In this document: piece after piece, positions 3,236 to 32,204 of the stretch
How positions within the stretch are numbered: the stretch's first letter is position 1
Layout: each line of letters begins with the position of its first letter
Notes under the pieces: model-generated
What the model was told of the DNA's origin: nothing
Seen by the model: the letters and a program-made list of their open reading frames with translations, nothing else
Databases searched by the model: none
Made by a program: the position numbers and the translations under genes
From: Pseudomonadota bacterium
Lineage (GTDB): Bacteria > Pseudomonadota > Gammaproteobacteria > Steroidobacterales > MnTg04
Assembly: GCA_022572885.1 (NCBI GenBank)
Contig: JACZVC010000031.1
Coordinates: forward strand, 1 to 33,366
DNA: 33,366 nucleotides
Direction: 5' to 3'

Positions 3236-3835
3236 TTAGAAGCCTGTCGCCTCGCATTCTTTTTGATCGGCTGGCCAAAGTGAGATCCTGCCAACAGCCT
3301 CTGCCCCCCTAACCGCTAACCACTGCAAGGCGCCGACAAAATAACGATCCATAAAACAATCCGTTCCATTCCGGAGCGGTTTTCCATCGGTGACAGCGAT
3401 CAGGGGGAAAACGCTGGTAACGGCCCCGAAATCCTGAACCGTGTTTTTCTCGATGTCGCACTTGCCAGCCTTGAGTTCGTCGGTCGTGCAAAGGATAGGC
3501 CCGAGAATAGCTGGTCGGCCCGGCAATATCTCTCGCGATTGAGTGGGACAAATCCAGTTGTCGTCGGAATCAATCTTACAGCTTTCGCGCACAACAAATG
3601 CATCTGGATTATCGGTCTTTATGCGCATTTCGCCGGCTTCAGCATCCAAAATGTGGGTGTAGGTATCTTCGGCCTCGCATTTTGGCATGCCCTGAAATTC
3701 ACCCCAGGATTCGAGACAGCGCACCGGGTACACCGTCAGCTCGTTTCCTTCGAAATTCACAACGTCAAACGCAAAAAGCGCGTACGCGCCGCCGCCGAGA
3801 ACTCCCAAGGCTATCAGGCGCTCAATAAGGGTCAT
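3236..3835 (-). CDS. Membrane-anchored seven-cysteine protein, paralogue A
   Basis: Protein of 199 aa with one N-terminal membrane helix (residues about 5-25, LIALGVLGGGAYALFAF) and an extracytoplasmic domain. Shared motifs with the neighbour at 3887-4528 occur in the same order: TVYPVRC, PKC, YTHILDA, SC, WICP, ILCT, KC, FPLIAVTDGKPLR, DC, RYFVGALQW, ISLWP. All seven domain cysteines are conserved between the two, so they may form disulfides or bind a ligand in the periplasm. The gene is last in the minus-strand operon, 51 bases after its paralogue. The start at 3835 has only a weak upstream purine stretch. I do not recognise the family. Confidence 0.8.
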   Translation of the reverse strand: MTLIERLIALGVLGGGAYALFAFDVVNFEGNELTVYPVRCLESWGEFQGMPKCEAEDTYTHILDAEAGEMRIKTDNPDAFVVRESCKIDSDDNWICPTQSREILPGRPAILGPILCTTDELKAGKCDIEKNTVQDFGAVTSVFPLIAVTDGKPLRNGTDCFMDRYFVGALQWLAVRGAEAVGRISLWPADQKECEATGF

Positions 3836-3886
3836 ATTTCCACTTTCGCAACAAGAGTTTCAGCCCTGCGTTTCCACTTTCGCCAC

Positions 3887-4528
3887 CTACCCTAGGCACA
3901 GCGATCGCACCGTCTCGGGATTGACCGGCCAGAGAGAAATCCCGCCCACAAACACTCCAGTCCGGAGAAGCATCCAATGCATACCATGAACAAAATAGCG
4001 TCCTTCCACGCAGGCCTCGCCTACCCTTACGGCTTTCCCATCAACAACAACTATCATAGGAAGGAACGTCCGAAACTCTCCGAACTTCAGCTGCTGGATC
4101 TGGCACGCTCTGATCCGCATCTGCTCAGGCGTGCACAAGATCTGGCGGCGCGAACCTTGAATGCCCAATCCCGTTACTACCGCCTCGAATGGACACGACC
4201 ACTCGCGGACCGAAATGACGTTACAGCCAATTCGCACCGAGTCCTCGCTCGCGAACTGCCCCTTGGGGCGCACCTCATTCTTTGCCACGTCCACCACATA
4301 GGTATAATGGGCTGCGGTAACGCATTTGGGCGAACCGAAAAAATCGCGACTGCCGGAATATTCACCCGGCATCAATTCGCACCGGACGGGGTAAAAGGTA
4401 TATTCATCGCCAATGCCGAAAGACTCAGGATTGTTAAAGAAAAATATGACAGTTGACAGAAACAAGCCCGCTATTAGCACTCGAAAAACACCGCCGAGAA
4501 AAGCAAGAGTCTTTTTCAGAATCCACAT
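3887..4528 (-). CDS. Membrane-anchored seven-cysteine protein, paralogue B
   Basis: I choose the ATG at 4528 (MWILKKTLAFLGG) because GAGAGGA lies 7 bases upstream. The open frame extends 18 codons further without such a site. The 213-aa protein has one N-terminal membrane helix (FRVLIAGLFLSTVIFFF) and a periplasmic domain homologous to the next gene: TFYPVRC, SPKC, YTYVVDV, GC, WSCP, ILCT, AC, FLPMIVVVDGKAVR, AC, RYFVHGMHW, GGISLWP. Tandem duplication of the family in one operon suggests a heterodimer or two versions of the same binding domain. It follows the 1043-aa TPR gene by 84 bases. Function unknown. Confidence 0.8.
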   Translation of the reverse strand: MWILKKTLAFLGGVFRVLIAGLFLSTVIFFFNNPESFGIGDEYTFYPVRCELMPGEYSGSRDFFGSPKCVTAAHYTYVVDVAKNEVRPKGQFASEDSVRIGCNVISVREWSCPFEAVVTGLGIQGSRRQILCTPEQMRIRACQIQQLKFGEFRTFLPMIVVVDGKAVRVGEACVEGRYFVHGMHWMLLRTGVFVGGISLWPVNPETVRSLCLG

Positions 4529-4612
4529 TCCACAGTCCTCTCTTAGAGAGCTGCCAATTAATGTAGCGCGCGCACGCGCCAACCTCTTGGCGCGGATACT
4601 AACCTCCTACGA

Positions 4613-7600
4613 TTAGTCGCAGGCCCCACGTAAAGGCGCCTCGGTCTGCGGCACGACAAGATGCGGATCGAGCCGTCGCGCTTCTATCAAATCGGATCTT
4701 GCTCTGGTGCAGTTTCCGAGCTTCGCATGAACAGCCGCGCGATAAGCGTAATTTTCTCTAGACGGCTCGAGCTCTATCGCTTTACTCGCATCATTCAGTG
4801 CTGCGGCCAAGTTACCCAACATATAATTTACTTTCGAATGCACATACCACCCGAAAGCAAAATCGGGATGTCGCCGTATTACGTTTGATGCCTGCTGCAA
4901 TACGGGCCGCAGGTTCGCTCCTTCCCCCACGGCCTTGGCGATTGCCGCGCGGATTGCCCGGGCCTGGACTTCGAGTGCCGGCGCAAGGGGCAAATCCTCG
5001 TCAATCGAGCCAGCCTCCATGGTTTCTTCGATCGCCCGGCTCAATTCGTTCTGCAGGTTGGAATAATCTTCATAACTCTGAAAGCCACCCGGCTCCATAA
5101 CGACCTGGGCTCGTGACAGCCGCTGCATGGCGCTCACTGCCAGTGCGTAGGCAAGGGTTTCGGCAGCACCGTCGGTGCCCAGCCTCAGGTCCCTCCGGTA
5201 ACTTCGGATCGCCTGGATCAGGTTACGTCGCGCCCTGCGGCCGGTTCGGTCCTCGTCGGCCCAAAACAGTGCCATGCGCCCATCGCCGTTATCATGCCAG
5301 AGTTCGTTGGACCAATTGGCATAATCGATAGCCGTACGCGGATCGCCTGACAGAATAAGGTGGTGCGCAATGGTGCTGTATTGCTGGCTTAGATGAACAA
5401 TATCCTCCAGCTGCGCTTGGGCCAGAAATTGCTGTGGGCCGGAGAGCCATTCGACGTCCATCGCAGCCAAAGAAACAGCCGGATCGTCGGGGTTTAATCG
5501 TCGTGCCTGCTCCATCGCGTTCCTGGCCTCTGTATAGTGGCCTGCGCGGGCCTCTACGGCTGCCAGATCAATCCAAATCCGAATATCGAAGGGGTCAAGT
5601 TCTACTGCTCGCCCAAAGGCACGGGCGGCCCCTGCATAGTTTTGCTCGCCCATGGCCCGCACGCCTTCGCTGACAGCACGAAGCAGGCCCGGTGGGGACG
5701 AATCCTCCTGCTCCGGCAGTGTGAGGACCAGGTCCACCTCCTTCGACATTCCACTTTCGTCGGCAAACGCGTCGACCGCCTGTTCCAAGGCTCTGCTCAT
5801 CCGCTGGCCAAAGCCGCCGAGTGACCTGCTTGAGGCTCGCGCCGCCAGCTCGACTCCCCCGGCCACCCGCAGCCCCGAGCCATCGGAGAGGGTTACGCTT
5901 ACGGCCGGAAAATAACGGGGCACGGCCTCCGTTCCTTCAAGGGACCTGTAAGCAAGATCCGATATTCCTTTAAGTAGCTCATTATCAATACCGGCTCGCA
6001 CCCAAATCGTTGCCACGCTGGCCAGATCGACCAGCCCCTGAAGGCGAATGAATATTCCGCCGGGTTGGATATCCTGCCGTAACTGAAGTATCGAATAGAG
6101 GCCCGCGAATTGCCGTGCGGCATCCTCGGCCATTTCGTTGCCGCGTCCCGTGCCCTGGAATTCTCCGCGCGAAACAGTCATGGCCTCGGTCTTTAGGTCG
6201 ACGCCGGTTTCGAACAGGACTGACCTGCCACTTGCCGAAACATGCACGGTGCCCGGCGACAACGGTTTTGGCGTTAACCAGAATCGTGAAAGAAAACCCC
6301 CTGTCGTACGTCCTTCGAGCCGGGTCGACATTGGCGTAAACTCGATACCGCTTAATACGTTGCCCCCAAGCATGATCTCCTTCATCGCGTAATCTGCGTT
6401 GATCAGAATGCGCGCTGGCACCGAATCGGATGGAAGATTCTCGATGCGCGAATATTGGGGACCTTCCAGGCGATCTGGCATCGGGTCCAGAGAGACCTGC
6501 GGCCACAGCCCCTCGGCCCAAACTGCACGCAATATGAGTATCAGGCTGTCAATATCAATGCGGTTGCGCGGTTCCTTCGCGGCAGCACCGACGAGAATAA
6601 TGTCGCTGCGATCGGCCGAAAAAACGAACCCGTGGACTCGCGAGATTGCTCCAGGATAGCGAAGATGCTCCGGCAGTTTACCCCAGGCACCAACGTGGCG
6701 CTGAGCAGCCTCATACAACCGTCGCAATGAAATAATAACTGGCCGGTTGACGCGCTCAAGCGCACCGCCGCCCTCCAGTCCATTGACCCCGGCCAGCATC
6801 AGCGCATTCAGGGTCACTTCGAGCCGCACGCCACCCACTTCCCTGACGCGCGCGCGAACGACGGGATCGCTTAGCGCATCGATCAGAGACGATGTCGGTT
6901 CTACACTCGTGCCCACGCCTGACGGGGCCGGCACGGTTATGAAAAGCTCTTTTCGTGGAGCGCCGGGCTGGGCGTCTTCAACTGCGCGATAGAGCGGGGT
7001 GAGGTCAATTCTACCGCCTTCTTTCAAAATAATGCGCTCGCCATCCTCATCGTAGATGAGATGCCATTCCTGATCGAAAAATGGCGTTCCCGCGTCTTCG
7101 GGTGGAGCCTGGTCCTCCGTCCGACGCTGTTCCAGGGCATCTTGCCAGCCGGTGACGCCGCCCCGGTTGAGAATTTCGTTGGCCTGCCTGAGAGCGTCAG
7201 AATCTCCAAGATTGATTCCTTTGCGTTGCTGAGCACCGGGACCGCTGGACAACGTGTCCACAACATTCGCTGCCCGGTTTGCATAGGACCGAGCTTGGGT
7301 TATTTTCCGGGCTGCGTCTTTATAGAGCTGTTGCTTCGCGACCGGGTCGGCCTCGTTTTCCGCTAGTGCGACCGAACGCTGGGCGGCTTCGACCAACTGC
7401 AATGAGGCCTCATGGTAGCTTTCAACGTTGCCTATGAAATCTGTCGCACTGACCGCCTCTCCCGATACAGGTCTGCCAACGCCACCGCTATCCTCTCCGC
7501 CACCGCTATCCAGTTTTGCGGCGGCTTCGCGCAACTGGGCCAACCGGTTTTTCAGCGCTGCATTTTGTCCCCCGAGCAACTTCAGATCTTGGGAGCAAAG

Positions 7601-7744
7601 AGCATTAATCTCCTGGAAATCGCTGTTGGTCTCACCACTTGTGGATGACTCAAATGTCTGAGCCCCAGAGTCCTGTGCCGGTGCGACCGACGGCACTGCC
7701 AGCAGTGCGGTCGCCAGCACCAGCGAACAGAGACGTTTACTCAT
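4613..7744 (-). CDS. Large exported TPR-repeat protein, 1043 aa
   Basis: The N-terminus is a signal peptide (SLVLATALLAVPSVAPAQ, cleavage near residue 23). A coiled-coil-prone segment follows (about 50-160, LKLLGGQNAALKNRLAQLR). A long middle region (about 220-680) includes VHGFVFSADRSDIILVG and ILINADYAMKEIMLGG; this part vaguely resembles DUF1598-type proteins, a weak impression. The C-terminus has TPR units at about 690-760 (YAGAARAFGRAVELDP, YTEARNAMEQARRLNPDDP) and 955-1030 (LAAALNDASKAIELEP, RARSDLIEARRLDPH). TPRs usually scaffold protein complexes, so this may organise the operon's products in the periplasm. Its ATG overlaps the stop of the upstream gene as ATGA, implying translational coupling. 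No enzymatic motif seen. Confidence 0.88.
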   Translation of the reverse strand: MSKRLCSLVLATALLAVPSVAPAQDSGAQTFESSTSGETNSDFQEINALCSQDLKLLGGQNAALKNRLAQLREAAAKLDSGGGEDSGGVGRPVSGEAVSATDFIGNVESYHEASLQLVEAAQRSVALAENEADPVAKQQLYKDAARKITQARSYANRAANVVDTLSSGPGAQQRKGINLGDSDALRQANEILNRGGVTGWQDALEQRRTEDQAPPEDAGTPFFDQEWHLIYDEDGERIILKEGGRIDLTPLYRAVEDAQPGAPRKELFITVPAPSGVGTSVEPTSSLIDALSDPVVRARVREVGGVRLEVTLNALMLAGVNGLEGGGALERVNRPVIISLRRLYEAAQRHVGAWGKLPEHLRYPGAISRVHGFVFSADRSDIILVGAAAKEPRNRIDIDSLILILRAVWAEGLWPQVSLDPMPDRLEGPQYSRIENLPSDSVPARILINADYAMKEIMLGGNVLSGIEFTPMSTRLEGRTTGGFLSRFWLTPKPLSPGTVHVSASGRSVLFETGVDLKTEAMTVSRGEFQGTGRGNEMAEDAARQFAGLYSILQLRQDIQPGGIFIRLQGLVDLASVATIWVRAGIDNELLKGISDLAYRSLEGTEAVPRYFPAVSVTLSDGSGLRVAGGVELAARASSRSLGGFGQRMSRALEQAVDAFADESGMSKEVDLVLTLPEQEDSSPPGLLRAVSEGVRAMGEQNYAGAARAFGRAVELDPFDIRIWIDLAAVEARAGHYTEARNAMEQARRLNPDDPAVSLAAMDVEWLSGPQQFLAQAQLEDIVHLSQQYSTIAHHLILSGDPRTAIDYANWSNELWHDNGDGRMALFWADEDRTGRRARRNLIQAIRSYRRDLRLGTDGAAETLAYALAVSAMQRLSRAQVVMEPGGFQSYEDYSNLQNELSRAIEETMEAGSIDEDLPLAPALEVQARAIRAAIAKAVGEGANLRPVLQQASNVIRRHPDFAFGWYVHSKVNYMLGNLAAALNDASKAIELEPSRENYAYRAAVHAKLGNCTRARSDLIEARRLDPHLVVPQTEAPLRGACD

Positions 7745-8742
7745 TCTTTCGTCAACTCCACCGTTGCCGTAAAGAATCCAGTTACAACTACCGGACCTTC
7801 CGGCTGCTCCGATTCATAGGTCATCGTGAATTGCTCTTCCGACTTGAGAATGATCCCCCGATCAACCGAAAACAGAATTGCTGCCGCGCCGTCATATCCG
7901 AGAAGTCTGCCAGTGCTGGCCATCTCGGGACTTTCGACTAAACTAAGTTCGACATTCCCACCGATCACAGCCAGCAATTCACCTCCGCGCCGGGCAAATC
8001 CAATCAGTTCAGCATTGTAGTTTCGCTCGGCCCGGCCCAAGGCGCCCAGCGGCACGATTTGCGTAGCCATCGCCCATTGATCGCCCACGCTCACGGGATA
8101 ATCGGGCAGGAGGATCTGCTCCTTCATGGCCAATTGCTCCGCCCAATCAATTGTTTTCGGGTCTTCGATCGGCTCGCCATTCTCGTCTTCAAAATAAACG
8201 TCTGCGATATTCCCGGTCGGGCCATGAACGCTAATAGCTACTGTCCGAAGCATTTTTTCGAACTCTGCACGCTGTCCTGCATCCACCAGTTGGTCCTTGT
8301 CCGAAACTCGGGAGTCGTACATCAGGACCGGCTCATTATCGATGAGGGTCATCGCCTGCAGATCCAGGAAAACGGTTTCCATTTCGATCTGACCGAACCG
8401 GGAAACTGATAACACGTCGTTTGCAAAGGCCAATGATGTGATGTTCTTGAACGAAAACGTTTGTTCATTTGATTCGTTGGCAACCATAACAAGACCGGTA
8501 CTCATTCTGTATTGTCGTCTTTCCCCGGGAGCACCCTTGATCTCAAGAAGAGTCGGTGGCAGATCGATGAAATCTGACGGCAACTCCTTGGCAATAGCCA
8601 AGTCATGCACTGTCATGGTCGGTTCGTCGGATATCCGACTCCCATACCAAGCCAGGAATCCGATCGCAAAGACCAAGAGGACCAGGAGAACACCGACCCC
8701 GATGAGCAGTTTTTTGAAGAAACGCCAGATCCTGTGCGACAT
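7741..8742 (-). CDS. Membrane-anchored periplasmic protein, 333 aa
   Basis: I choose the ATG at 8742 (MSHRIWRFFKKLL) because GGAG precedes it by 8 bases. The upstream extension has no such site and overlaps the preceding gene. One N-terminal membrane helix (LLIGVGVLLVLLVFAIGFLAWYG) is preceded by a basic cytoplasmic end (in-out anchor). The rest is a beta-rich domain with alternating hydrophobic residues and motifs such as GDQWAMATQIVPLG and VVVTGFFTATVELTKE, suggestive of a lipocalin- or barrel-like fold with extracytoplasmic location. No catalytic signature. Overlaps the TPR gene by four bases. Family not recognised. Confidence 0.85.
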   Translation of the reverse strand: MSHRIWRFFKKLLIGVGVLLVLLVFAIGFLAWYGSRISDEPTMTVHDLAIAKELPSDFIDLPPTLLEIKGAPGERRQYRMSTGLVMVANESNEQTFSFKNITSLAFANDVLSVSRFGQIEMETVFLDLQAMTLIDNEPVLMYDSRVSDKDQLVDAGQRAEFEKMLRTVAISVHGPTGNIADVYFEDENGEPIEDPKTIDWAEQLAMKEQILLPDYPVSVGDQWAMATQIVPLGALGRAERNYNAELIGFARRGGELLAVIGGNVELSLVESPEMASTGRLLGYDGAAAILFSVDRGIILKSEEQFTMTYESEQPEGPVVVTGFFTATVELTKE

Positions 8743-8779
8743 TTGTAAAACTCCGCTTCGCGACCAACTATCGCGCGCG

Positions 8780-9265
8780 CTACTCAAATCCTTCCAATGA
8801 GGATGAGAATTGACGGCTCGCCCCTCGGAGGCGATCAAGTGCCTCCACATACCAGTCTCGTGCTATTTCGAATTCCAAAGCGTCACCGCGTCTGGCGCTC
8901 TCGGCCAGGGCGAGTATAGCGCTGGCGCACTCCTGATAATTGGGCAGTATCATCAAGTATCGCTTGGCGTCCCCCTCGGGCGGCATCGTTTGAAGCAAGC
9001 TCTTGAGAGCGGCGTCGAGCCGAAGAGCGCTCGCTTCGAGGTCTTGCGCTCTAGCGACATCGGCGGGATCACTTCTGTCGGCCAGAATAACTGCAACGTT
9101 GGTCAGTTCTGCGGCAGCAGTCACCCAGTGTCCGTAATACGCCGTTTCTTCAGCCGAACTGCTTTGGGCGCTTGCCGCATTGATCGACAGCCAACCAACC
9201 CAAACACTCAACACCGCCGACAGAACCATTTGCCGAATCACGAGGAAAGGCAAACCGGAACTCAT
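8780..9265 (-). CDS. Small exported protein, 161 aa
   Basis: The ATG at 9265 (MSSGLPFLVIRQMVL) overlaps the stop of the upstream gene as ATGA, which decides the start over a longer frame beginning at 9400. The N-terminus is a signal peptide (LSAVLSVWVGWLSINAASAQ, cleavage after ASA). The mature protein is nearly all helical with several Ala/Leu/Glu heptads (ARAQDLEASALRLDAALKSLL, ALEFEIARDWYVEALDRL), likely a small helical bundle in the periplasm. It could partner the coiled-coil protein encoded just upstream. Family not recognised. Confidence 0.8.
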   Translation of the reverse strand: MSSGLPFLVIRQMVLSAVLSVWVGWLSINAASAQSSSAEETAYYGHWVTAAAELTNVAVILADRSDPADVARAQDLEASALRLDAALKSLLQTMPPEGDAKRYLMILPNYQECASAILALAESARRGDALEFEIARDWYVEALDRLRGASRQFSSSLEGFE

Positions 9266-10383
9266 TGCGAATCCTCGTCCGCGATCGATTGCATCAATAA
9301 GGCGATCTTCGATTGTGCAATCAGCGTGGCCTCGGCGCGGGCAAGGCGCTCGGCCTGCCGCCGCACTTTTTGGCCCTGCACATGTATGCGGCCGCGCCAC
9401 GCCTGCTCGTTGCCTTCCATGCGATCAAGCCGATCCTGCGCATCGTTCAACTGTCCCATCGCGAGTACAAAATGAGCGACGTCTGCGCTGAAAACTGTAA
9501 CATCGGCGATCAGCCCGGCGGGACCGAGATAAGATGACATGCGCGCCGCCGACTGTACGCCAGCCATGCTCAAAAGACTGATCGTATTTGAAGCCTCGCG
9601 CGCCACCATGCCTGCCACCGTCAAGGCCGCTGCACGTTCGTCACCGGAAAGCTTCGCGTCGGACAAATTCTGCACGTCGCTGATATTGGGCAGCCGGCTA
9701 ACGATCTGATCGTACGTTTGCAGCGAACCGCGCGCCGCCAGGCTGAGATTCTGGCTGGCGTCAAGCTTCAGATTAGCGGCAAATGTGATTGCCGACATCG
9801 CAAGCCCGATACCAGACTGCATCATATTTTTCTCCAGCCATACTTGTTCGAGAGCAAAACCCTCGATTTCCCTGATCAGCCGGCGTCGGTCATCGCCAAT
9901 TCCGCTTTTGTCGACACGAAGATATATCTGAAAAGCTTGGTTCAGCCTGGCCAGACGTTCACTGGCGGCCTGACGGTCGCTCGCGGCGTTCGAGCGCTCA
10001 TCCAGTAGCGATTGCCGAAAATCAGCACTCGCGATCGTGCCTCCGATTAATCGCAATTGCCGAAACTGCTGCTCCGACTCTTCGAAGGCGTCGGCAAATT
10101 CGTCAAGTATCTCTTGGTCATTTGCCGCAATCAACTCATCCCGAATTTGCCGGATCTCGCGCCACTGGTTCCAGGCAGTTTCTATTTCGCTGTAATAGCT
10201 GTCCCATTGGCGGGCCAAGGACTTGGAAAGGCAATCTGAAAGGGATGTACAGACGCTTTGCTGGCCGAACGCCGGAGGAGATGAGGTCAGTCCATGCATC
10301 AGCATCCCGGCGATAAGGGCGGACAGCGTAATTCCAAGGCCACGGAAAATCTTAATTTCACTTACTCCAACGGAATCGGGCAA
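9262..10383 (-). CDS. Exported coiled-coil protein, 373 aa, first gene of operon
   Basis: The N-terminus holds a signal peptide (GITLSALIAGMLMHGL, cleavage near PPAFGQ). The mature protein is long-helical: WDSYYSEIETAWNQWREIRQIRDELI, heptads around 140-180, and a final basic helix RRQAERLARAEATLIAQSK. A hydrophobic glycine-containing stretch sits at about 285-315 (SSYLGPAGLIADVTVFSADVAHFVLA), perhaps membrane-active. The start is uncertain: the longest frame begins with TTG at 10383 without a good ribosome site, whereas GGAG lies just inside, before codons 8-10. Two cysteines (CTSLSDC) occur soon after the cleavage site. First gene of the six-gene operon; the promoter should lie in 10384-10848. 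Function unknown. Confidence 0.8.
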   Translation of the reverse strand: MPDSVGVSEIKIFRGLGITLSALIAGMLMHGLTSSPPAFGQQSVCTSLSDCLSKSLARQWDSYYSEIETAWNQWREIRQIRDELIAANDQEILDEFADAFEESEQQFRQLRLIGGTIASADFRQSLLDERSNAASDRQAASERLARLNQAFQIYLRVDKSGIGDDRRRLIREIEGFALEQVWLEKNMMQSGIGLAMSAITFAANLKLDASQNLSLAARGSLQTYDQIVSRLPNISDVQNLSDAKLSGDERAAALTVAGMVAREASNTISLLSMAGVQSAARMSSYLGPAGLIADVTVFSADVAHFVLAMGQLNDAQDRLDRMEGNEQAWRGRIHVQGQKVRRQAERLARAEATLIAQSKIALLMQSIADEDSQ

Positions 10384-10848
10384 GAAAATTACAACACCTA
10401 TTGCTCGAGCAGATCATGAAAATCGCAAAGGGAATTGCAGCGGCCACCGGCAACAGTAAGCAAATCGAAAGTCTCCTGTTCTCGATATAGCAGGGCCTTA
10501 TCCACCAGCGTGCCGCCTAACTAATAATTATATTGCAAAAGTGCCGTATTTAATCCCGTGCAGTACAAAATGTGCAGGTCCGCTTTGGGTCGTTAGCGGC
10601 CCCTTTGGTCAATATTACCCGAAGGTCCGCTTTCGGGAGTATAGCGGTCGTTCAAAACGCTAGAAAATCACTAATCTAACAGGCCGCTAACGGCCAGAAC
10701 CGGACATTGCGATGGCAAGGACTGGCCAAGAATGCCTATCTCAAGACTTCAAGAATCGGTGTGGATGTCTATACTGAAGAATAGGTATCCGATGTGCGGC
10801 GTCTATTGGCAACGGTTCGTCAATAATTAATGTACCGGGGATAATCAA
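10384..10848. other. Divergent intergenic region with PALINDROMIC repeat cluster
   Basis: No coding frame of note in 465 bases. It separates the minus-strand exported-protein operon from the plus-strand sugar dehydrogenase gene, so promoters for both must lie here; I could not pick a convincing pair. It contains three related palindromic words at 10577-10601, 10624-10650 and 10681-10711 (entered separately). Confidence 0.6.
10577..10711. repeat. Cluster of GTCCGCTTTsGG...AGCGG repeats
   Basis: Three variants of one word lie close together. GGTCCGCTTTGGGTCGTTAG followed by CGGCC starts at 10577. GGTCCGCTTTCGGGAGTATA followed by GCGGTC starts at 10624. An inverted version, GGCCGCTAACGGCC with CCGGACATTG, lies at 10682-10710. 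Further copies are at about 1886 and at 12266-12291. The arms CCGCT / AGCGG are complementary, so each copy can form a small hairpin. They behave as a dispersed intergenic repeat family. Confidence 0.65.
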
Positions 10849-12066
10849 ATGAACATCCATCCAGTTATCGCTGTGAGCTTGCTGCTTGCTCTTGTTGCGG
10901 CGATCAACTCTTGCGGGGGCGGCAGTTCCGGACCAGTCAGTCAACCACCGCCGCCGGTTTCGCTGGAGACAGGCGTACAGCGAGTTTTCAATCAGCTCAC
11001 ATTCAATCTTCCGGTCGCCCTGATTCAGGCGCCCAGCGATATTTCACGGTGGTTTGTCGTTGAGCAGTCAGGTGTCATAAGAGTGTTCAATAATGACCCG
11101 ACCGTATCTTCGAGTTCCGTGTTCATCGATATCAGTGGTCGAGTAAATTCCGGGCCCAGCGAAGCCGGTTTACTTGGTATGGCCTTTCACCCTGATTTTG
11201 CCGCCAATGGCCACGTTTTCCTTTCTTACACTCGAACCGGATCGCCGCTCGTATCGGTCATTTCGCGCTTCGTCATCGATCCTGCAACAGGAGATCTTGA
11301 CGAAACTTCAGAGTTCGAAATCCTGACTGTCCCACAGGATTTTTCAAATCACAATGGCGGCAACATCGCGTTTGGGCAGGACGGGTTTCTTTATATCGGG
11401 TTTGGCGATGGTGGCAGCGGAGGTGATCCTAACGAACGTGCGCAGGACACTAGCCATATCTTGGGCAGTATCGTGCGCCTTGATATCGATGTCGCGCCGC
11501 CAACTCGTTACGCGATTCCAGCGACTAATCCATTTTCGTCCAATACGAACTGCGTTGATGGCGTCGGTGTGATGCCTTGCCCGGAGATATATGCCTGGGG
11601 GTTTCGAAATCCCTGGCGCTTCAGCTTTGACAGTCAGACCGGGGAACTCTGGGTTGGCGATGTCGGGCAAGCTGACTGGGAAGAAATCGACCGGGTCGAA
11701 CTGGGAATGAATTATGGCTGGGACGAGCGAGAGGGCGCACATTGTTTTGAACCATCCACAGGTTGTTCAACCAACAACGTTGATCCAATCACCGAATATG
11801 GTCATGTCGGTGGAAATATTTCGGTAACCGGAGGATTCGTGTATCGTGGCGCCGCCATTCCGAATTTGCAGGGTTTCTATGTATTTGGCGACTTCGGCTC
11901 TGGTCGTATATGGGGTGTGCCGGCGACCAGCGTGCAAGGCACTGCACCCGACGAGCTTGACGATACTACGCTCAGTATCTCGTCGTTCGCAGAGGGCGCG
12001 GACGGTGAATTGTATGCACTGAATTACGGCGCCGGGGAAATCTATCAGATCATTGATGTTCCCTGA
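10849..12066 (+). CDS. PQQ-dependent sugar dehydrogenase-like lipoprotein
   Basis: Protein of 405 aa. A lipoprotein-like leader (LLLALVAAINSCGGG, lipobox-type Cys at about 22) is followed by a Pro-rich linker and a six-bladed beta-propeller of the soluble glucose/sorbosone dehydrogenase family. Seen motifs: WFVVEQSGVIRVF, EAGLLGMAFHPDF, VSVISRFVID, NHNGGNIAFGQDGFLYIGFGDGG, RNPWRFSFD, GELWVGDVGQADWEEIDRVE, NYGWDEREG and VTGGFVYRG. These match the conserved propeller blades and the PQQ-side His/Gly-Gly motif. The likely role is oxidation of an aldose at the outer face of the inner or outer membrane with PQQ as cofactor, though many homologues have no known substrate. GGGG lies about 10 bases before the ATG. 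It appears monocistronic. Confidence 0.9.
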   Translation: MNIHPVIAVSLLLALVAAINSCGGGSSGPVSQPPPPVSLETGVQRVFNQLTFNLPVALIQAPSDISRWFVVEQSGVIRVFNNDPTVSSSSVFIDISGRVNSGPSEAGLLGMAFHPDFAANGHVFLSYTRTGSPLVSVISRFVIDPATGDLDETSEFEILTVPQDFSNHNGGNIAFGQDGFLYIGFGDGGSGGDPNERAQDTSHILGSIVRLDIDVAPPTRYAIPATNPFSSNTNCVDGVGVMPCPEIYAWGFRNPWRFSFDSQTGELWVGDVGQADWEEIDRVELGMNYGWDEREGAHCFEPSTGCSTNNVDPITEYGHVGGNISVTGGFVYRGAAIPNLQGFYVFGDFGSGRIWGVPATSVQGTAPDELDDTTLSISSFAEGADGELYALNYGAGEIYQIIDVP

Positions 12067-12166
12067 CTTGGCTGCGTCCTGTCACCTTTTTTTCTAAAAA
12101 ATGCTCTGGCCGACTACGACGGAGTTTTATTAATGGGTCAAAAATCAGGTATTGAGATCGCTCGTG

Positions 12167-12292: not shown

Positions 12293-12505
12293 ATCCTGAC
12301 GCCATTATCGCTCTTGGGCAAGGGCCCTCGTTTGTCAGGCTTTAGGAAATCGTTCGTCCACGATCGAGGGTCTATTCGTAGGGGCCTGCGCCGGGGCAGC
12401 GGGACCGGAGCTTACGCACGCTCTGGAAGAGCTTCCCACCGTTACGTAAATATTACGTAAACGGGCCGGCCCGACCTGCTGCCGAGCCTAACCCGTTGTT
12501 TTTAT

Positions 12506-12581
12506 TGGCGTCCCCAGGGGGAGTCGAACCCCCGTTGCCGCCGTGAAAGGGCGGTGTCCTAGGCCTCTAGACGATGGGGAC
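12506..12581 (-). tRNA. tRNA-Glu (anticodon UUC)
   Basis: The minus strand folds as a 76-base tRNA: acceptor GTCCCCA pairs with TGGGGAC, the anticodon stem CCGCC/GGCGG carries loop CTTTCAC with anticodon TTC, and the T-arm contains GGTTCGACTCC. CCA is encoded. It lies downstream of tRNA-Ala and of gltX, whose enzyme charges this tRNA; this order is common in gammaproteobacteria. Confidence 0.95.
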
Positions 12582-12627
12582 GAGGCTATGTCCTTATTCG
12601 TGGTCCTGGCGCGGCGCCTGTGAATTC

Positions 12628-12703
<76 letters not shown>

Positions 12704-12717
12704 ACGAAGAGTCGCGC

Positions 12718-12746
12718 ACTTTACGGTAGCCTCCGGAGCCTGTCAA
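12718..12746 (-). promoter_or_regulatory. Strong sigma70-type promoter for tRNA-Ala/tRNA-Glu
   Basis: On the minus strand a perfect -35 TTGACA (12741-12746) is followed by a 17-bp spacer and -10 TAAAGT (12718-12723). A GC-rich discriminator GCGCGAC follows, then the tRNA-Ala 5' end 14 bases after the -10. GC-rich discriminators are typical of stringently controlled stable-RNA promoters. Confidence 0.8.
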
Positions 12747-12778
12747 GAATACGCGACCACCGCTGTCAGGCCTGAAAA

Positions 12779-14221
12779 CTAGGTCTTTTCGGCGTTTTCC
12801 AAGCCATCGATATAGGCCAGCGCGCGGTCCAGCCTGGCCAGGGTTTTGTCCCGTCCCAGCAGCTCCAGCGTAATATCGATCGGTGGTGAAACCGGGCCGC
12901 CACACACGGCCACGCGCACCGGCTGTGCGACCTTGCCAAGCTTCAGGTCCATGGCCTCGGCGGTCGCCATCACGACTTGGTGGATCGGCTCCGCCTGCCA
13001 GTCGTCCAGCGCCGCCAGCGCCTTGCGTACCTTGGCCAGGGCCTCACGGCTGCTGGCTTTGAGATTCTTGCGGGCGGCCTTTTCGTGGTAATCGTCGAAA
13101 TCCTGGTAGAAAAACACGCTGCTCTGCGCCATCTCGTGCAGGGTCTGGGCGCGCTCGCGTAATGCATCGACCACCCCTTCGGCGGGCGGGCCGGCAGCGG
13201 TATCCACGCCGAGACATTCGAGCTGGTGCTGCAACTCGCAAGCCAGCCGATCGGTCCCGGCCTTCATGATGTGCTGCTGGTTGATCCACAACAGCTTTTC
13301 CGGGTTGAACGTGGACGCCGCCTTGTTGACATCGGCGATATCGAACAACTCGCACATCTCGTCCACGGTGAACAACTCCTGGTCGCCGTGCGACCAGCCC
13401 AGGCGGACCAGGTAATTGAGCATCGCCTCGGGCAAAAAGCCTTCCTGGCGATAATGCAGCACGCTGACCGCGCCATGGCGTTTTGACAACCGCGAACCGT
13501 CCTGGCCCAGGATCATCGGCAGATGGGCGTATTGTGGTAGCTCCGCACCCAGCGCCTTGCAGATATTGATCTGGCGGGGCGTGTTGTTGAGGTGGTCGTC
13601 GCCGCGGATGACATGGCTGATTTCCATGTCCCAGTCGTCGATGACGACGGAGAAATTGTAGGTCGGGGTGCCATCGGATCGCACCAGCACCAGGTCGTCC
13701 AGCTCCTTGTTCTCGAAAACCACGGGTCCGCGCACCAGGTCATCGACCACCACCTGGCCATCCTCGGGGTTTTTGAAACGCACGACCGGCTTGACCCCTG
13801 GCACCGGCTCGCGCCCGTCACGGCAACGGCCGTTATAACGCGGCTTTTCCTTGCGCGCCATTTGCGCCTTGCGCATCTCGTCCAGCTCCTCCTTGCTGCA
13901 ATAGCAGTGGTAGGCATCGCCCTGCTCGAGTAGCTGGTCGGTCAGTTCCTGGTAGCGCTCCAGGCGGTCGGTCTGGAAGAACGGGCCCTCGTCCGGGCGC
14001 AAGCACAGCCATTCCATGCCATCGAGGATGACCTGGATCGCCTCTTCGGTCGAACGCTCGCGATCGGTGTCCTCGATACGCAGGATGAAGGTGCCGCCGT
14101 GTCTTTTGGCGTACAACCAGCAAAACAACGCGGTGCGGACACCGCCGATGTGCAGGTAACCGGTCGGGCTGGGTGCGAACCGGGTCCTGACGGGTCTGGC
14201 CGGGGATTTTTCTGAACTCAT
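12779..14221 (-). CDS. gltX: Glutamate--tRNA ligase
   Basis: Class I aminoacyl-tRNA synthetase of 480 aa that charges tRNA-Glu with glutamate using ATP. I prefer the ATG at 14221 ([19 protein letters not shown]); a TTG four codons earlier is possible. The HIGH motif appears as [11 protein letters not shown] (about residues 17-27), the KMSKS equivalent as SRLSKRHG (about 243-250), and the zinc-binding-region CYCSKEEL at about 106-113. [13 protein letters not shown] and the C-terminal anticodon-binding helices are intact, and length is normal for the family. Encoded directly upstream of tRNA-Ala and tRNA-Glu on the same strand, but those tRNAs have their own promoter. Confidence 0.97.
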
Positions 14222-14312
14222 TGCTCGTGTCAACTTTTGCCGCCGGGGTTTTTTTTAAAGCCGATTCGCCCCGAATCCATTGCTGTTCTTAGGATGCGCA
14301 TTCTAGCAGAAC

Positions 14313-14336
14313 AAAAAAGGGGACAGATTTATTTAT
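14313..14336 (+). repeat. AAAAAAGGGGACAGATTTAT dispersed repeat
   Basis: First and best-preserved copy with the one at 24906. Lies in the divergent gltX/transporter spacer. Confidence 0.7.
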
Positions 14337-14361
14337 TGCAGCCGCGATTGGCGTTCGCATC

Positions 14362-14447
14362 GGGCCTGAAAGCCCGCCTACCAACATTTTCCGGCATTGG
14401 CGGTATTTATAACCGTTGGTGGAAAACCTCTTCGGGCCTGAAGGCTC
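14362..14447 (+). repeat. Two REP-like hairpins
   Basis: GGGCCTGAAAGCCC (14362-14375) and GGGCCTGAAGGCTC (14434-14447) lie 72 bases apart in the same orientation, like a small BIME-type pair. Confidence 0.65.
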
Positions 14448-14556
14448 TCCTGAGCAAGGAAGATAAATCGGGAAACTGCATCGCTGGCCGTGCGCCGTTG
14501 GTACATCGGCCGTCCGCCAGCTAACATGGTCAGCTTCGTATCCTCGGGATCAGGAA

Positions 14557-16173
14557 TTGGCGGAACAAAACAACAACCTCAGCCGCTTCGAACGCGTTAT
14601 TGCGCTGTTCACCAAGGTTCGTGCCGGCGAAGGCCGCTCCATCGCGTTGTTTTCGCTGTATGCGCTGGTCCTGATGTTGAGTTATTACCTGTTCAAGACC
14701 ATGCGCGAGACGCTGATCCTGACCGAGTTCAGCGCCGAAGTCAGAAGTTACGCAACCGCCGCCATTACGCTGATGCTGTTTTTCATCGTGCCCCTTTATG
14801 GCGTCTTGTTCCGCCAGGGCAACAAAGAGCAGCTGATCCGCTGGATCACACTATTCTTCGCTTCCAACGTCCTGATTTTCTACATGATGGGCAAAGCCGG
14901 CATGGAGTTCAGTTTTCTCTATTATATCTGGGTCGGCATTTTTGGGGTCATGATGATCGCCCAGTTCTGGGCTTTCGCCGCGGATCATTTCAACATCAAG
15001 ACCGGCCAGCGATTGTTCCCGATCATCATGGCCGGCCAGGCATTCGGCGCGGTCATCGGCGCCCAGCTTTTCTCGCTGCTTTTCCCGCATCTGGGTGCTT
15101 ACAATCTGATGCTGGTGGCGGGCGCGCTGCTGGCAGGAACCACCTGGTTTACCGGCCGATCCGGTCGTTCGGTGCCAAAAGAATCCGCCGCGGTTTACGC
15201 CGAACCCACTGCGGAGGACGAGAAACAACTCGATAACGTGCTCGGCGGATTTTCGGTGATCCGGAACAACCGTTACCTGATGTTGATCGCCGCAGTCGCC
15301 GTGTTGCTGAACTGGATCAACAGCACCGGCGAATATATTTTTGCCGAATGGGTCTCGACCCTGGCCGCCAACGCCGATGCCGAAAAATCCAGTACCATCG
15401 CCAGGTTGTATGGCATTTATTTTACCGCTGCGACGGTCCTCGGGTTTCTGTTGCAGATTTTCCTGGTGTCGCGCATTTATCGCTGGATCGGTGTAGGCGG
15501 CGCCTTGCTGATCCTACCGATCATCGCAATGGTCGGTTACGGAATGATCGTGTTTGTCCCGGTTTTCAGCCTGATCTGGCTAGTCAAGGTGGTAGAAAAC
15601 GCCACCGATTACTCGATCATGAACACGACCCGCCAAGCGATCTATCTGCCGCTGACGCAACGGGAAAAATACGAAGGCAAAACCGCAATCGACACTTTTT
15701 TCTGGCGCATCGGCGACCTGATCCAAGCCGGCGTCATTTATATCGGGTTGCACTGGCTCGGCTTCGAGATAACCCACTTCGCGTTGCTCAACATGGTGCT
15801 GGCATCGGTCTGGATCTGGCTGGCCGTACTCATCGGCCGCCGTTATCACCAACTGGCCAAGACCAATATTTCCAGCGTGCCGCCAACGCTTTTCCGGCCG
15901 ATCCCCGATGTCTATGCGCCAGCCGGCAGCCCATTGGCCTTCGAGCTCGATCATGACCATTTCCACGACACCGACCCTGGTGACGTGCTGACGCTGAGCG
16001 CTTGCATGGAGAATTCGGACGAACTGCCCGCGTGGCTTAGTTTTGAGGCGGTCACCCGTGCCTTTGCCGGCATGGTGCCCACCGATATCGACGAAGTGAC
16101 CACGCTGACCGTCACCGCCACCGATTTCGACGGGCTGTGCATATCGACCCGGTTGATTATCCGGCACCGATGA
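14557..16173 (+). CDS. NTT/Tlc-type transporter fused to a cadherin-like (CADG) domain
   Basis: Protein of 538 aa. Residues about 25-440 form a 12-helix membrane protein resembling the ATP:ADP antiporter / nucleotide transporter family, also MFS-like (YYLFKTMRETLILTEFSAEVR, FWAFAADHFNIKTGQRLFPIIMAGQAFGAVIGA, ENATDYSIMNTTRQAIYLPL). In free-living bacteria such proteins are mostly of unknown substrate. Residues 448-538 form a separate domain (PIPDVYAPAGSPLAFEL, LPAWLSFEAVTRAFAG, TLTVTATDFDG), typical of cadherin-like putative-Ig domains of secreted proteins. This fusion is unusual. Start is TTG at 14557 with GGGA 7 bases upstream. The gene stands alone, converging on a small membrane-protein gene. 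Confidence 0.85.
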   Translation: MAEQNNNLSRFERVIALFTKVRAGEGRSIALFSLYALVLMLSYYLFKTMRETLILTEFSAEVRSYATAAITLMLFFIVPLYGVLFRQGNKEQLIRWITLFFASNVLIFYMMGKAGMEFSFLYYIWVGIFGVMMIAQFWAFAADHFNIKTGQRLFPIIMAGQAFGAVIGAQLFSLLFPHLGAYNLMLVAGALLAGTTWFTGRSGRSVPKESAAVYAEPTAEDEKQLDNVLGGFSVIRNNRYLMLIAAVAVLLNWINSTGEYIFAEWVSTLAANADAEKSSTIARLYGIYFTAATVLGFLLQIFLVSRIYRWIGVGGALLILPIIAMVGYGMIVFVPVFSLIWLVKVVENATDYSIMNTTRQAIYLPLTQREKYEGKTAIDTFFWRIGDLIQAGVIYIGLHWLGFEITHFALLNMVLASVWIWLAVLIGRRYHQLAKTNISSVPPTLFRPIPDVYAPAGSPLAFELDHDHFHDTDPGDVLTLSACMENSDELPAWLSFEAVTRAFAGMVPTDIDEVTTLTVTATDFDGLCISTRLIIRHR

Positions 16174-16220
16174 CCAGCGCTTGTGCCCGCTGATGCATCG
16201 GCTTGATTGTTGACGAATCC

Positions 16221-16424
16221 CTAGTCCGATTTTCTGGTCAGATAAACACCGGTTGCCAGAATAAGCAGGCCGACTGCCGATCCCATCTTCTGCTGAGTCC
16301 CAAACCCAGGATCGTCACCGACTCCGATTACATCAGCAAGCAAAGAGATCAACAGTAGTCCGGCACCTATGACTATGACAATCGTCGCCGCGTTTATTTT
16401 ATCCAACACGGTCAAATCCCCCAT
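16221..16424 (-). CDS. Small two-helix membrane protein
   Basis: A 67-aa frame (ATG at 16424) with two hydrophobic helices, ATIVIVIGAGLLLISLLADVI and AVGLLILATGVYLT, joined by a short polar loop (GVGDDPGFGTQQK). The real start may be the GTG at 16409, since GGGGGA lies 7 bases upstream of it; that gives MLDKINAATIVIV and 62 aa. The longer frame to 16505 lacks a membrane-compatible N-terminus. Resembles small DUF-type membrane proteins common in bacteria, function unknown. Confidence 0.6.
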   Translation of the reverse strand: MGDLTVLDKINAATIVIVIGAGLLLISLLADVIGVGDDPGFGTQQKMGSAVGLLILATGVYLTRKSD

Positions 16425-16496
16425 TTTTTGAGTACGCCCAGAGTATACGCCAATGACCTCGTTCTGGTGGGCGGCGGCTCCTGGTGCCCGCCACAA

Positions 16497-16526
16497 TTGA
16501 CGCAAGGCCAGGCCAGACCCTAATAT
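16497..16526 (+). promoter_or_regulatory. Sigma70-type promoter for tRNA-Val
   Basis: TTGACG (16497-16502), an 18-bp spacer and TAATAT (16521-16526) are followed by a C-rich discriminator (CACCCCCCC). The tRNA begins 27 bases after the -10. The layout matches a stable-RNA promoter. Confidence 0.65.
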
Positions 16527-16552
16527 TCACCCCCCCCTGTCCGCGCCATCGT

Positions 16553-16627
16553 GGGTGATTAGCTCAGCGGGAGAGCGCTGCTTTCACACGGCAGAGGTCA
16601 CTGGTTCAATCCCAGTATCACCCACCA
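16553..16627 (+). tRNA. tRNA-Val (anticodon CAC), island insertion target
   Basis: 75-base tRNA: acceptor GGGTGAT pairs with ATCACCC, D-arm TAGCTCAGCGGGAGAGC, anticodon stem CTGCT/GGCAG with loop TTCACAC (anticodon CAC, reads GUG), T-arm CTGGTTCAATCCCAG, encoded CCA. The last 45 bases (16583-16627) recur with one mismatch at 24852-24896, the usual signature of integration into a tRNA 3' end. Confidence 0.93.
16583..16627 (+). repeat. Direct repeat in tRNA-Val 3' half (candidate attL)
   Basis: Starts TTCACACGGCAGAGGTCACT in the anticodon loop and ends at the encoded CCA. Matches 24852-24896 at 44 of 45 positions by eye. The T-rich sequence after it is also similar for about 10 bases. Confidence 0.8.
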
Positions 16628-17019
16628 GTTTTTCCCTCTACCTTTCAAAGAGTTAGCGTCAACTCACTAGAGCACTGCTTTTTGCCGGATTGCTCACTGC
16701 CGGAATTTTTGCCGGGATTTTTCCCGAACTCCTCCGGCCAGTCGCAAAACCGTCGTACGCTTCTGCTCACAGATCGAGTCAACCGCGTGCAACAATCTCC
16801 CAAGCAATGCCTGGGGTCGGCACATTGTAACCGCACCATACCGAGCATAGGGAATTGCACATTCGACAGGTGCGGCGTCCATCAAGACCTCGTAACCAAC
16901 GTCAGTACCGTATCGAGTTGGTGCCGAGTTCATGTCGGCAGGGCACTCGTCAGCTTATACATGCTAAAATCGCTACAAATATGCATAACAGCGAATCGGG
17001 CCATCGGAACTGTGTCAGC
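16628..17019. other. Left inner flank of the island, no gene seen
   Basis: 392 bases between tRNA-Val and the most likely start of the fused glycosyltransferase. It contains inverted words built on GCCGG/CCGGC, including ACTGCCGGAATTTTTGCCGG (16696-16715). A near copy of this, ACTGCCGGAAAATTGCCGGG, lies at 24736-24755, just inside the other end of the island. No integrase gene is present. Confidence 0.5.
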
Positions 17020-19356
17020 ATGCCACACCTTCTAGAATCAGTCGCTCTTATCGGCTCGTACCTGCCGAGACAGTGTGGTATCGCCACCTTTACGGCTGAT
17101 CTAGCCACCGCGATTATCGACAACGGTCCAAACATTGACTGCACTATCGTAGCCATGAACGATCGGCGTGAGGGGTACGAGTATCTGGAATCGGTCAAAT
17201 TTCAGATTAGCCAGAACGAATTGAATGAATACCGTCGCGCCGCAGATTTCCTGAACCTGCGCAATCCGGATGTAGTTTGTCTGCAACACGAATACGGAAT
17301 ATTCGGTGGTCAACGCGGCAGCTTCATTATTGAACTCGTACAGAACTTGAAAAGCCCCTTGATAACCACCTTGCACACAATATTGAGAAATCCATTAGCA
17401 GAGGAACGAACGATCATCAATCAGCTATCGGAACTGTCCTACCGCTTGGTGGTCATGAGTGAGCTCGGTGCTGATTTTCTAAGAGATATATATCAAGTTC
17501 CAGCGAGCAAGATAGCTCTCATCCATCATGGAATCCCCGATGTGCCTTTTTTGGATCCGGATCCATGTAAGAGCAAGGTCGCCGCAGACGACAAAATTGT
17601 GATCCTGACATTTGGCCTGCTCTCGCCCGGCAAGGGTATCGAGTTTATGATTGATGCCCTGCCGAACATCGTCAGCTCACATCCGGAAGTACTCTATTTC
17701 GTGGTTGGTGCCACTCATCCAAACTGCAGGAGCGAAAGTGGCGAGGCCTATCGCCTGAGTTTGCACCGCCGGGCAAAGGATTTGGGCGTCGCCGACCACA
17801 TTGTGTTCCATGATCGATTCTTAGAGCGAGATGAATTGCTTGAGATCATTCGGGCTGCCGATATCTATGTCACCCCGTACCTGAATGAGGCTCAGATTGT
17901 ATCCGGAACGCTCGCCTACGCAGTGGGAGCGGGAAAAGCCGTCGTCTCCACCCCGTATTGGCATGCAAAGGAGATGTTGGCTGATGGTCGAGGCAGGCTC
18001 GTACCATTTAAAGATCACCTGGCTTTGGCGCACGAGATCAATCAACTTCTGGACTTTCCAGAGGACCGACTCAAGATGCGCCGCGCAGCTTACGAATATT
18101 CCCGACCCATGGTGATGAAGGAGATGGGCCGCCGGTATCTGGAATTGTTTTCGCGAGCCAAGACGCAACATACGCGTATCGGCGATCTGCCGGTACTCGA
18201 TACGCTGAGTCAGCGCGATCAGCGACTGCCACAGATCAATTTAACGCATCTACGCCATATGACAGATCACACTGGCATGCTCCAGCACGCGAAATTCACG
18301 GTTCCAAACCGAGCCCACGGGTACTGTGTCGACGACAACGCTCGGGCACTCATCGTTGTTGCCAGAGCGCATGACCTCGATAGAACCGATACCTCACTGA
18401 CGGAATTGTCGTCCGTTTATCTCAGTTTCCTGGATGATGCTTTCGATTCAGAAACCGGGCGATTTCACAATTTCATGTCGTACGATCGCAAATGGCTGGA
18501 CACCATTGGATCCGAGGATTCTCACGGCCGCGCGCTGTGGGCACTGGGCACGATGGCAGGCTGGGGACAAAATTCAGGTCAAGTCGCTCTTGCCATTAAA
18601 CTCTTCCATGATGCGTTGCCGGCGCTGGAAAGCTTTTCGGATTCGCGTGCCGTAGCATTCCCTATCCTTGGGATTCAGGCGTACCTCCACCGGCACGATA
18701 ACGATCACCAAGTCCGTGAGCTGCTCAAATCACTGGGCGAGAGACTCCGGACCCGCTTCAGGCAGCACGCCACCAAAGACTGGCAATGGCACGAATTATC
18801 ACTGACCTACGACAATGCACGGCTACCCGAAGCATTGATAGCCTGTGGTCGCGTTACCAACGATGATGACATGGTGAAGACCGGTATCGAGGTACTCGAA
18901 TGGTTGAAAGACATCCAGCTCGATTCATCCGGCGGATGGTTTGCACCGGTTGGTAATCAGGGTTGGTTCCGCAAATCCGGCAGCAAAGCGCAATACGATC
19001 AACAGCCTCTCGAAGCAGCCGCCATGATCGGCGCCTGTATTCAAGCCCATGAATGCACGCAGCGTGAGGAATGGGTTCAGCTGGCATCGACCTGCTTCAA
19101 CTGGTATCTGGGTAAGAACGATCAACAAACCCAACTTTATGACCATGCCAGTGGCGGATGCCGCGACGGGCTCACGCGGGACGGTGTCAATGAGAATCAG
19201 GGTGCGGAGTCAACGCTGTCGTACCTATCCTCCTTGCTCGCCATTTATAATCTCCGCGGATTGACCGCGAATCATCAGGACGATAAGAAGCCGGCGTTGG
19301 AAAAAAATCTGGCGGAAAACCCCGAGACGCAGCTCAAGTCTGCGGGTACTCCTTAA
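17020..19356 (+). CDS. GT4 glycosyltransferase fused to a six-hairpin-like helical domain
   Basis: I prefer the ATG at 17020 (MPHLLESVALIGSYLPRQCG), since family members start just before this motif; the open frame runs back to a TTG at 16855. Of the 778 aa, residues 1 to about 390 form a GT-B enzyme (CGIATFTADLATAI, LQHEYGIFGG, LTFGLLSPGKGIEFMIDALP, HDRFLERDELLEIIRAADIYVTP, SGTLAYAVGAGKAVVSTPYW). The usual EX7E pair is incomplete: the Glu of NEAQIVSGTL is followed by Leu. Residues about 430-760 look like an alpha/alpha-barrel (YCVDDNARALIVVARAH, DSHGRALWALG, GGWFAPVGNQGW, NENQGAESTLSYLSSLLAIY). Such fusions occur beside GH130 enzymes; substrate unknown. It converges on the next gene with a 23-base 3' overlap. 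Confidence 0.85.
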   Translation: MPHLLESVALIGSYLPRQCGIATFTADLATAIIDNGPNIDCTIVAMNDRREGYEYLESVKFQISQNELNEYRRAADFLNLRNPDVVCLQHEYGIFGGQRGSFIIELVQNLKSPLITTLHTILRNPLAEERTIINQLSELSYRLVVMSELGADFLRDIYQVPASKIALIHHGIPDVPFLDPDPCKSKVAADDKIVILTFGLLSPGKGIEFMIDALPNIVSSHPEVLYFVVGATHPNCRSESGEAYRLSLHRRAKDLGVADHIVFHDRFLERDELLEIIRAADIYVTPYLNEAQIVSGTLAYAVGAGKAVVSTPYWHAKEMLADGRGRLVPFKDHLALAHEINQLLDFPEDRLKMRRAAYEYSRPMVMKEMGRRYLELFSRAKTQHTRIGDLPVLDTLSQRDQRLPQINLTHLRHMTDHTGMLQHAKFTVPNRAHGYCVDDNARALIVVARAHDLDRTDTSLTELSSVYLSFLDDAFDSETGRFHNFMSYDRKWLDTIGSEDSHGRALWALGTMAGWGQNSGQVALAIKLFHDALPALESFSDSRAVAFPILGIQAYLHRHDNDHQVRELLKSLGERLRTRFRQHATKDWQWHELSLTYDNARLPEALIACGRVTNDDDMVKTGIEVLEWLKDIQLDSSGGWFAPVGNQGWFRKSGSKAQYDQQPLEAAAMIGACIQAHECTQREEWVQLASTCFNWYLGKNDQQTQLYDHASGGCRDGLTRDGVNENQGAESTLSYLSSLLAIYNLRGLTANHQDDKKPALEKNLAENPETQLKSAGTP

Positions 19357-20815: not shown

Positions 20816-20961
20816 CGATGATTGCGCGCCGCTTTAATTTGACTAACAATGGCCTTGGGAAAGTGGCCCAGGTTCAGACAGTCGGGAGTATAGCCGCGAA
20901 GGCTGCCAGAAGCTTGTATTACAATTCACACTTCTGAGAATCACCAGTTAGGAGCATATCT

Positions 20962-30766: not shown

Positions 30767-30790
30767 AAATAAATCTGCCTCCTTTTTTCT
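30767..30790 (-). repeat. Dispersed repeat, inverted copy next to manB stop
   Basis: On the minus strand reads AGAAAAAAGGAGGCAGATTT followed by ATTT. The manB stop codon (30789-30791) overlaps its edge. Confidence 0.6.
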
Positions 30791-32138: not shown

Positions 32139-32181
32139 CAGAAATTATTGTCCCGCCAGTTTCATCTTGCGAACGCCCATC

Positions 32182-32195
32182 GGGCCTGAAGGCCC
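32182..32195 (+). repeat. REP-like hairpin between manC and manB
   Basis: Perfect GGGCCTGAAGGCCC in the 66-bp gap between the manC stop and the manB start. Here the hairpin would lie inside a manC-manB transcript, where it could attenuate transcription or stabilise the upstream mRNA. Confidence 0.7.
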
Positions 32196-32204
32196 TCCCA
32201 CAGG

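Follow-up and report, generated by a model that had tools for sequence, protein, structure and literature searches.

A rare cell-envelope gene set around a distant DUF1598 homologue fused to TPRs

The six-gene operon described here is a real but rare cell-envelope gene set, formed around a distant homologue of DUF1598 that is fused to TPRs. This description is directly supported by the gene layout, by N-terminal export signals read from hydropathy, by DUF1598-TPR homology, by a clade shared with planctomycete proteins and by absence from the sampled relatives. The window, that is, the whole stretch of 33,366 nucleotides that was analysed, is one entire contig (C31) of a 2.76 Mb assembly (GCA_022572885.1, order Steroidobacterales), which is 96% complete with a contamination estimate of 0.25% and in which no 16S rRNA was found.

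The operon is a minus-strand run of six open frames, read from 10383 to 3236 (P0001 to P0006). The open frames confirm the layout given in an initial annotation of this DNA, with ATGA junctions at 9262-9265 (P0001/P0002) and 7741-7744 (P0003/P0004) and intergenic gaps of 37, 84 and 51 bases, the 84-base gap lying between genes 4 and 5:

9262..10383, minus strand: gene 1, P0001, 373 aa, probably from a TTG start; helical/coiled-coil protein behind a signal peptide; includes a small hydrophobic stretch (~residue 291)
8780..9265, minus strand: gene 2, P0002, 161 aa; small protein, probably helical, with a signal peptide that ends in ASA-QS
7741..8742, minus strand: gene 3, P0003, 333 aa; a single membrane anchor at the N-terminus (~residues 12-34), remainder outside, likely beta-rich
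4613..7744, minus strand: gene 4, P0004, 1043 aa; signal peptide, helical spacer, DUF1598-type domain, C-terminal TPRs
3887..4528, minus strand: gene 5, P0005, 213 aa; N-terminal membrane anchor and eight-cysteine domain
3236..3835, minus strand: gene 6, P0006, 199 aa; N-terminal anchor and eight-cysteine domain; duplicate of gene 5

P0001 probably starts at TTG; the next ATG (10305) would strip most of the signal peptide. N-termini were read by hydropathy and inspection, which gave signal peptides for P0001, P0002 and P0004 and single anchors for P0003, P0005 and P0006, as had been claimed for each product. The strongest hydrophobic stretch is the N-terminal one in P0002 to P0006; in P0001 the N-terminal stretch (1.60) is accompanied by a slightly stronger internal one (1.68) near residue 291. 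These predicted export signals support the envelope location proposed earlier. Codon usage of all six genes falls between the 13th and 31st percentile among 296 background genes, within the genome's own spread, so that the genes look real and resident.

All recognisable domains of the operon lie in P0004, in searches of the six proteins against Pfam, NCBIfam, PHROGs and PADLOC; the remaining matches were noise:

5837..6736, minus strand: DUF1598-type domain of P0004, residues ~337-636
5381..5671, minus strand: first TPR block of P0004, residues ~692-788 (TPR_2, 46.1 bits against a cut-off of 27)
4637..4978, minus strand: second TPR block of P0004, residues ~923-1036

The Pfam match to DUF1598 (PF07643) is sub-threshold (18.4 of 25 bits, over 33 residues), and since it misses the curated cut-off, we filed P0004 as a distant DUF1598 homologue and not as a member proper. 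Real DUF1598 sequences were fetched with a probe alignment (A1) in which rows 1 and 3 are hand-written consensus-like DUF1598 sequences and row 2 is the window sequence. The probe served solely for this fetching and gave 80 loci among at least 505 confirmed matches, nearly all titled Planctomycetota and one labelled otherwise. Its window row could have biased the loci fetched, but it hardly explains a similarity over the whole domain. An HMM built purely from 47 real planctomycete DUF1598 proteins scored P0004 at 54.9 bits, in two stretches within residues 337-636, against a best score of 2.4 bits among 200 shuffled versions of P0004. In the ADYxMK core, A, D, Y, M and K are invariant in 43 alignment rows, the window included. 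The initial annotation, which saw no recognised function in the operon, had thus overlooked this domain, the function of which is likewise not known. It had also cast P0004 as a TPR scaffold: a TPR-containing hub is supported by the sequence, but the conserved core is the DUF1598-type domain, making P0004 more than a mere TPR scaffold.

An AlphaFold2 model of the domain, computed from the 43-row alignment, reached a pTM of 0.74, with most core blocks at pLDDT 75-96. Its best PDB matches (Foldseek E 0.8, VIA Z 2.0) look like noise; because the query comprised 447 residues with a low-confidence start, a confident model with no solved match does not prove a new fold. In a viral structure library, the model (window 5660-7000) had one strong match, a Tupanvirus J-domain protein (E 1.3e-6, probability 1.00), but with poor superposition (rmsd 26).

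When 13 of the genomes behind the DUF1598 loci were searched with the P0004 core, a relative was found in one, the Planctomycetota MAG isolate SZAS-6 (L134), with 38% identity over 415 aa. This protein, P0009 (1235 aa), has a signal peptide, DUF1598 and TPRs; it aligns with full-length P0004 at 30.5% over 829 aa (E 2e-86), and its DUF1598 passes the Pfam cut-off (31.6 bits against 25). With a two-row profile, long proteins with DUF1598 followed by TPRs were found in 5 of 294 sampled Planctomycetota (~2%), SZAS-6 among them (L134, L142, L143, L144 and L145, the L143 gene being cut by the contig end). The TPRs were identified by domain search in P0004 and P0009 and read from the translations in the others. 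A six-row profile also recovered single-domain DUF1598 proteins, in which no TPRs were found, in four other host-class genomes of the 194 searched (L153, L154, L155 and L156). At L153 (6652-14353), in a genome of the host's order, the single-domain gene is flanked by a gene for an unknown protein of 955 aa and by a Staphylococcal-nuclease-type gene, beyond which comes a weak metalloprotease-family match.

In a phylogenetic tree that took in three of these four host-class proteins, P0004 pairs with P0009 (support 100/98) and the TPR-bearing DUF1598 proteins form one clade (six rows, 100/99), apart from both the single-domain host-class and the classical planctomycete DUF1598 proteins. The branches of P0004 and of the SZAS-6 protein are long (0.9 each), and the tree is therefore silent on the route by which P0004 entered the genome; it allows an old transfer as well as sparse retention. 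At the thresholds used, a search of 396 genomes from the order, four congeners among them, gave no match to P0004, and 369 genomes from the host's class gave none to any of the six proteins.

The initial annotation had proposed looking for the same six genes together in other genomes. Such co-occurrence was not found: relatives turned up for P0004 alone, and the genes around those relatives bear no relation to the other five proteins, none of which (P0001, P0002, P0003, P0005, P0006) has a detectable relative at any DUF1598-TPR or DUF1598 locus examined. In four of the planctomycete loci, the DUF1598-TPR gene is immediately preceded by an exported gene common to them:

L142:10972-12225, conserved upstream exported gene
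L143:3-575, conserved upstream exported gene
L144:8588-10039, conserved upstream exported gene
L145:7256-8704, conserved upstream exported gene

The L142 and L143 products are clearly similar (E 4e-22), and those of L144 and L145 (E 0.001 and 0.006) fit the alignment, so that DUF1598-TPR proteins do tend to be accompanied by an exported partner. From these sequences, the upstream gene and the DUF1598-TPR gene make a candidate two-gene unit of their own. Neither BLAST nor profile comparison linked the L142/L143-type partner to a protein of the window, and it is also missing in SZAS-6, where other exported proteins are found instead. Among the 80 loci listed, of at least 505 matches, no conserved neighbour hinted at a function for the single-domain planctomycete DUF1598 genes, the commonest being an FHA/GAF-type protein (17 of 80).

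The other five proteins of the operon have no detectable relative elsewhere. P0001 had no match above noise in family, PDB or defence libraries, P0002 had none in the four family libraries, and P0003 had no family match above noise and a best PDB E of 0.49; a supposed resemblance between P0003 and DUF6263 was rejected, since Pfam gave no match to that family up to E 1. The PADLOC anti-phage defence models gave no match to the operon proteins up to E 1. Single-protein searches of phages, plasmids (no match at E 10), viral contigs, contigs of 85k species and the sampled order, class and phylum genomes returned nothing beyond the window; a viral contig match of P0006 (L013) proved to be a short chance match (WGEFQGMP) within a phage structural gene, and phylum-level matches of P0005/P0006 (E 0.008-0.05) are probably due to chance. 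As previously noted, P0005 and P0006 are similar to each other, forming a duplicated pair (35% identity over 167 aa, E 2e-32), and the seven cysteines ascribed to each are in fact eight, with seven inside the aligned part. As far as searches of Pfam, NCBIfam, PHROGs, PADLOC and the literature reach, in which no mention of DUF1598 or PF07643 was found, the proposal of an undescribed system holds.

We tentatively favour a reading in which the operon encodes a cell-envelope assembly or module built around P0004 as hub, with lineage-specific partners. A signal peptide would direct P0004 into the periplasm, or further out. The working part of this protein may be the conserved DUF1598-type domain; as it shows no evident catalytic motif, it probably serves for binding, and the TPRs at the C-terminus could dock other proteins. 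Single anchors would fix P0003, P0005 and P0006 to the inner membrane, leaving their domains outside, those of P0005 and P0006 presumably closed by disulfides, and P0001 and P0002 would be soluble exported helical proteins. ATGA translational coupling suggests P0001-P0002 and P0003-P0004 as the tightest pairs, and genes 5 and 6 could form a separate unit, given the 84-base gap that sets them off from gene 4. The periplasmic complex, TPR docking and any function are what we infer from the directly supported features. Against a module with P0004 as hub, the other five operon proteins have no detectable relatives beside any DUF1598-TPR gene, the planctomycete partner gene was not detected in the window, and promoter-like and terminator-like sites were no more numerous than expected by chance.

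The strongest rival, which we consider quite possible, is a loose operon in a variable region, its exported accessory products sharing a promoter and forming no complex. The region is bounded by the following feature:

12488..12581, minus strand: tRNA-Glu (12506-12581), with synteny breaking off 18 bp beyond the tRNA 3' end; context, outside the operon

Positions 12488-16767 are colinear with the nearest relative, the congener G002, at 90-93% identity; left of 12488, the window sequence is replaced there by DNA unrelated to it for 11 kb. The glucose/sorbosone dehydrogenase-type gene at 10839-12081 has a 97% identical copy in G002 with both flanks wholly different, exceeding the 90-93% of the gltX region, and the insertion sequence at 120-1624, apparently recently active, has a 99% identical copy elsewhere in that genome. 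Given the break and the displacement of these two elements, the region that holds the operon is variable and adjoins a tRNA gene; tRNA genes are common island sites. That the partners of the P0004 relatives are all different also fits a loose operon, but the two ATGA couplings and the export signals on every product speak for a joint role. Moreover, no tyrosine integrase, the usual island type, was recognised in the window frames scanned, nor was an attachment-type repeat of the tRNA-Glu end found in the window. The tRNA-Ala/tRNA-Glu pair beside gltX is, we presume, reminiscent of Gammaproteobacteria such as Pseudomonas. Elsewhere in the window, a frame at 14557-16173 oddly combines a match to a TLC ATP/ADP-transporter-type model with an Ig-like domain at its end. 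Glycosyltransferase genes with two GH130-type mannoside phosphorylase genes (16855-22921), together with phosphomannomutase and GDP-mannose synthesis genes (30789-33335), perhaps form a mannose-polymer cluster.

The same break at 12488, together with the operon's lack of a relative in the sampled order, would also fit a contaminant or an assembly chimera in which the left 12 kb are foreign to the genome. We regard this as very improbable: all six genes fall within the genome's spread in codon usage and G+C, and a dispersed intergenic repeat of the genome itself (10540-10730), with several 72-83% copies on other contigs, adjoins the operon, both of which argue against contamination, as do the low contamination estimate and the 97-99% copies in a congener of the insertion sequence and dehydrogenase gene from the same stretch. 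A surface-acting or secreted system, for instance with P0001 as a membrane-inserting helical protein and the others as carriers or protectors, seems improbable. P0001 does place long helices around a small hydrophobic stretch, a pattern of helical pore-formers, but it matches no family, PDB entry or defence library, its single-sequence AlphaFold2 model (all-helical, mean pLDDT 44) is too poor for interpretation, and no secretion genes were recognised nearby in the window. A broader version of the hub reading, in which proteins of the DUF1598-TPR type would act as hubs in a class of envelope machines not yet described, their exported partners being exchangeable, the operon being a variant outside Planctomycetota and the DUF1598 fold one unseen in solved structures, strikes us as unlikely.

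In Planctomycetota, DUF1598 occurs frequently (one scan gave at least 505 confirmed matches); outside that phylum, the operon gives a compact setting for testing what the domain does, with its candidate partners defined. A confident domain model with no solved-structure match also makes DUF1598 a sensible target for structure determination.

Compared with TPR proteins generally, P0004 has TPRs that exceed the Pfam cut-off, but they occupy its C-terminal third only. With DUF1598 (PF07643), a family of exported proteins of unknown function found mostly in Planctomycetota, residues 337-636 align over most of the domain and share the ADYxMK and SxDP motifs and a terminal GG, in addition to the export signal; P0004 differs in falling below the Pfam cut-off, in belonging to a separate clade and in its long helical spacer and C-terminal TPRs. 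The single-domain proteins of L153-L156 likewise combine a DUF1598 domain with N-termini that read as export signals, but they lack TPRs, form a separate clade (three placed) and have unrelated neighbours. The planctomycete DUF1598-TPR proteins (P0009 and those of L142, L143, L144 and L145) have the same domain order as P0004 and share its clade (100/99), but their neighbour genes differ from those of the window, and four of the loci carry the conserved upstream exported partner, which the window lacks.
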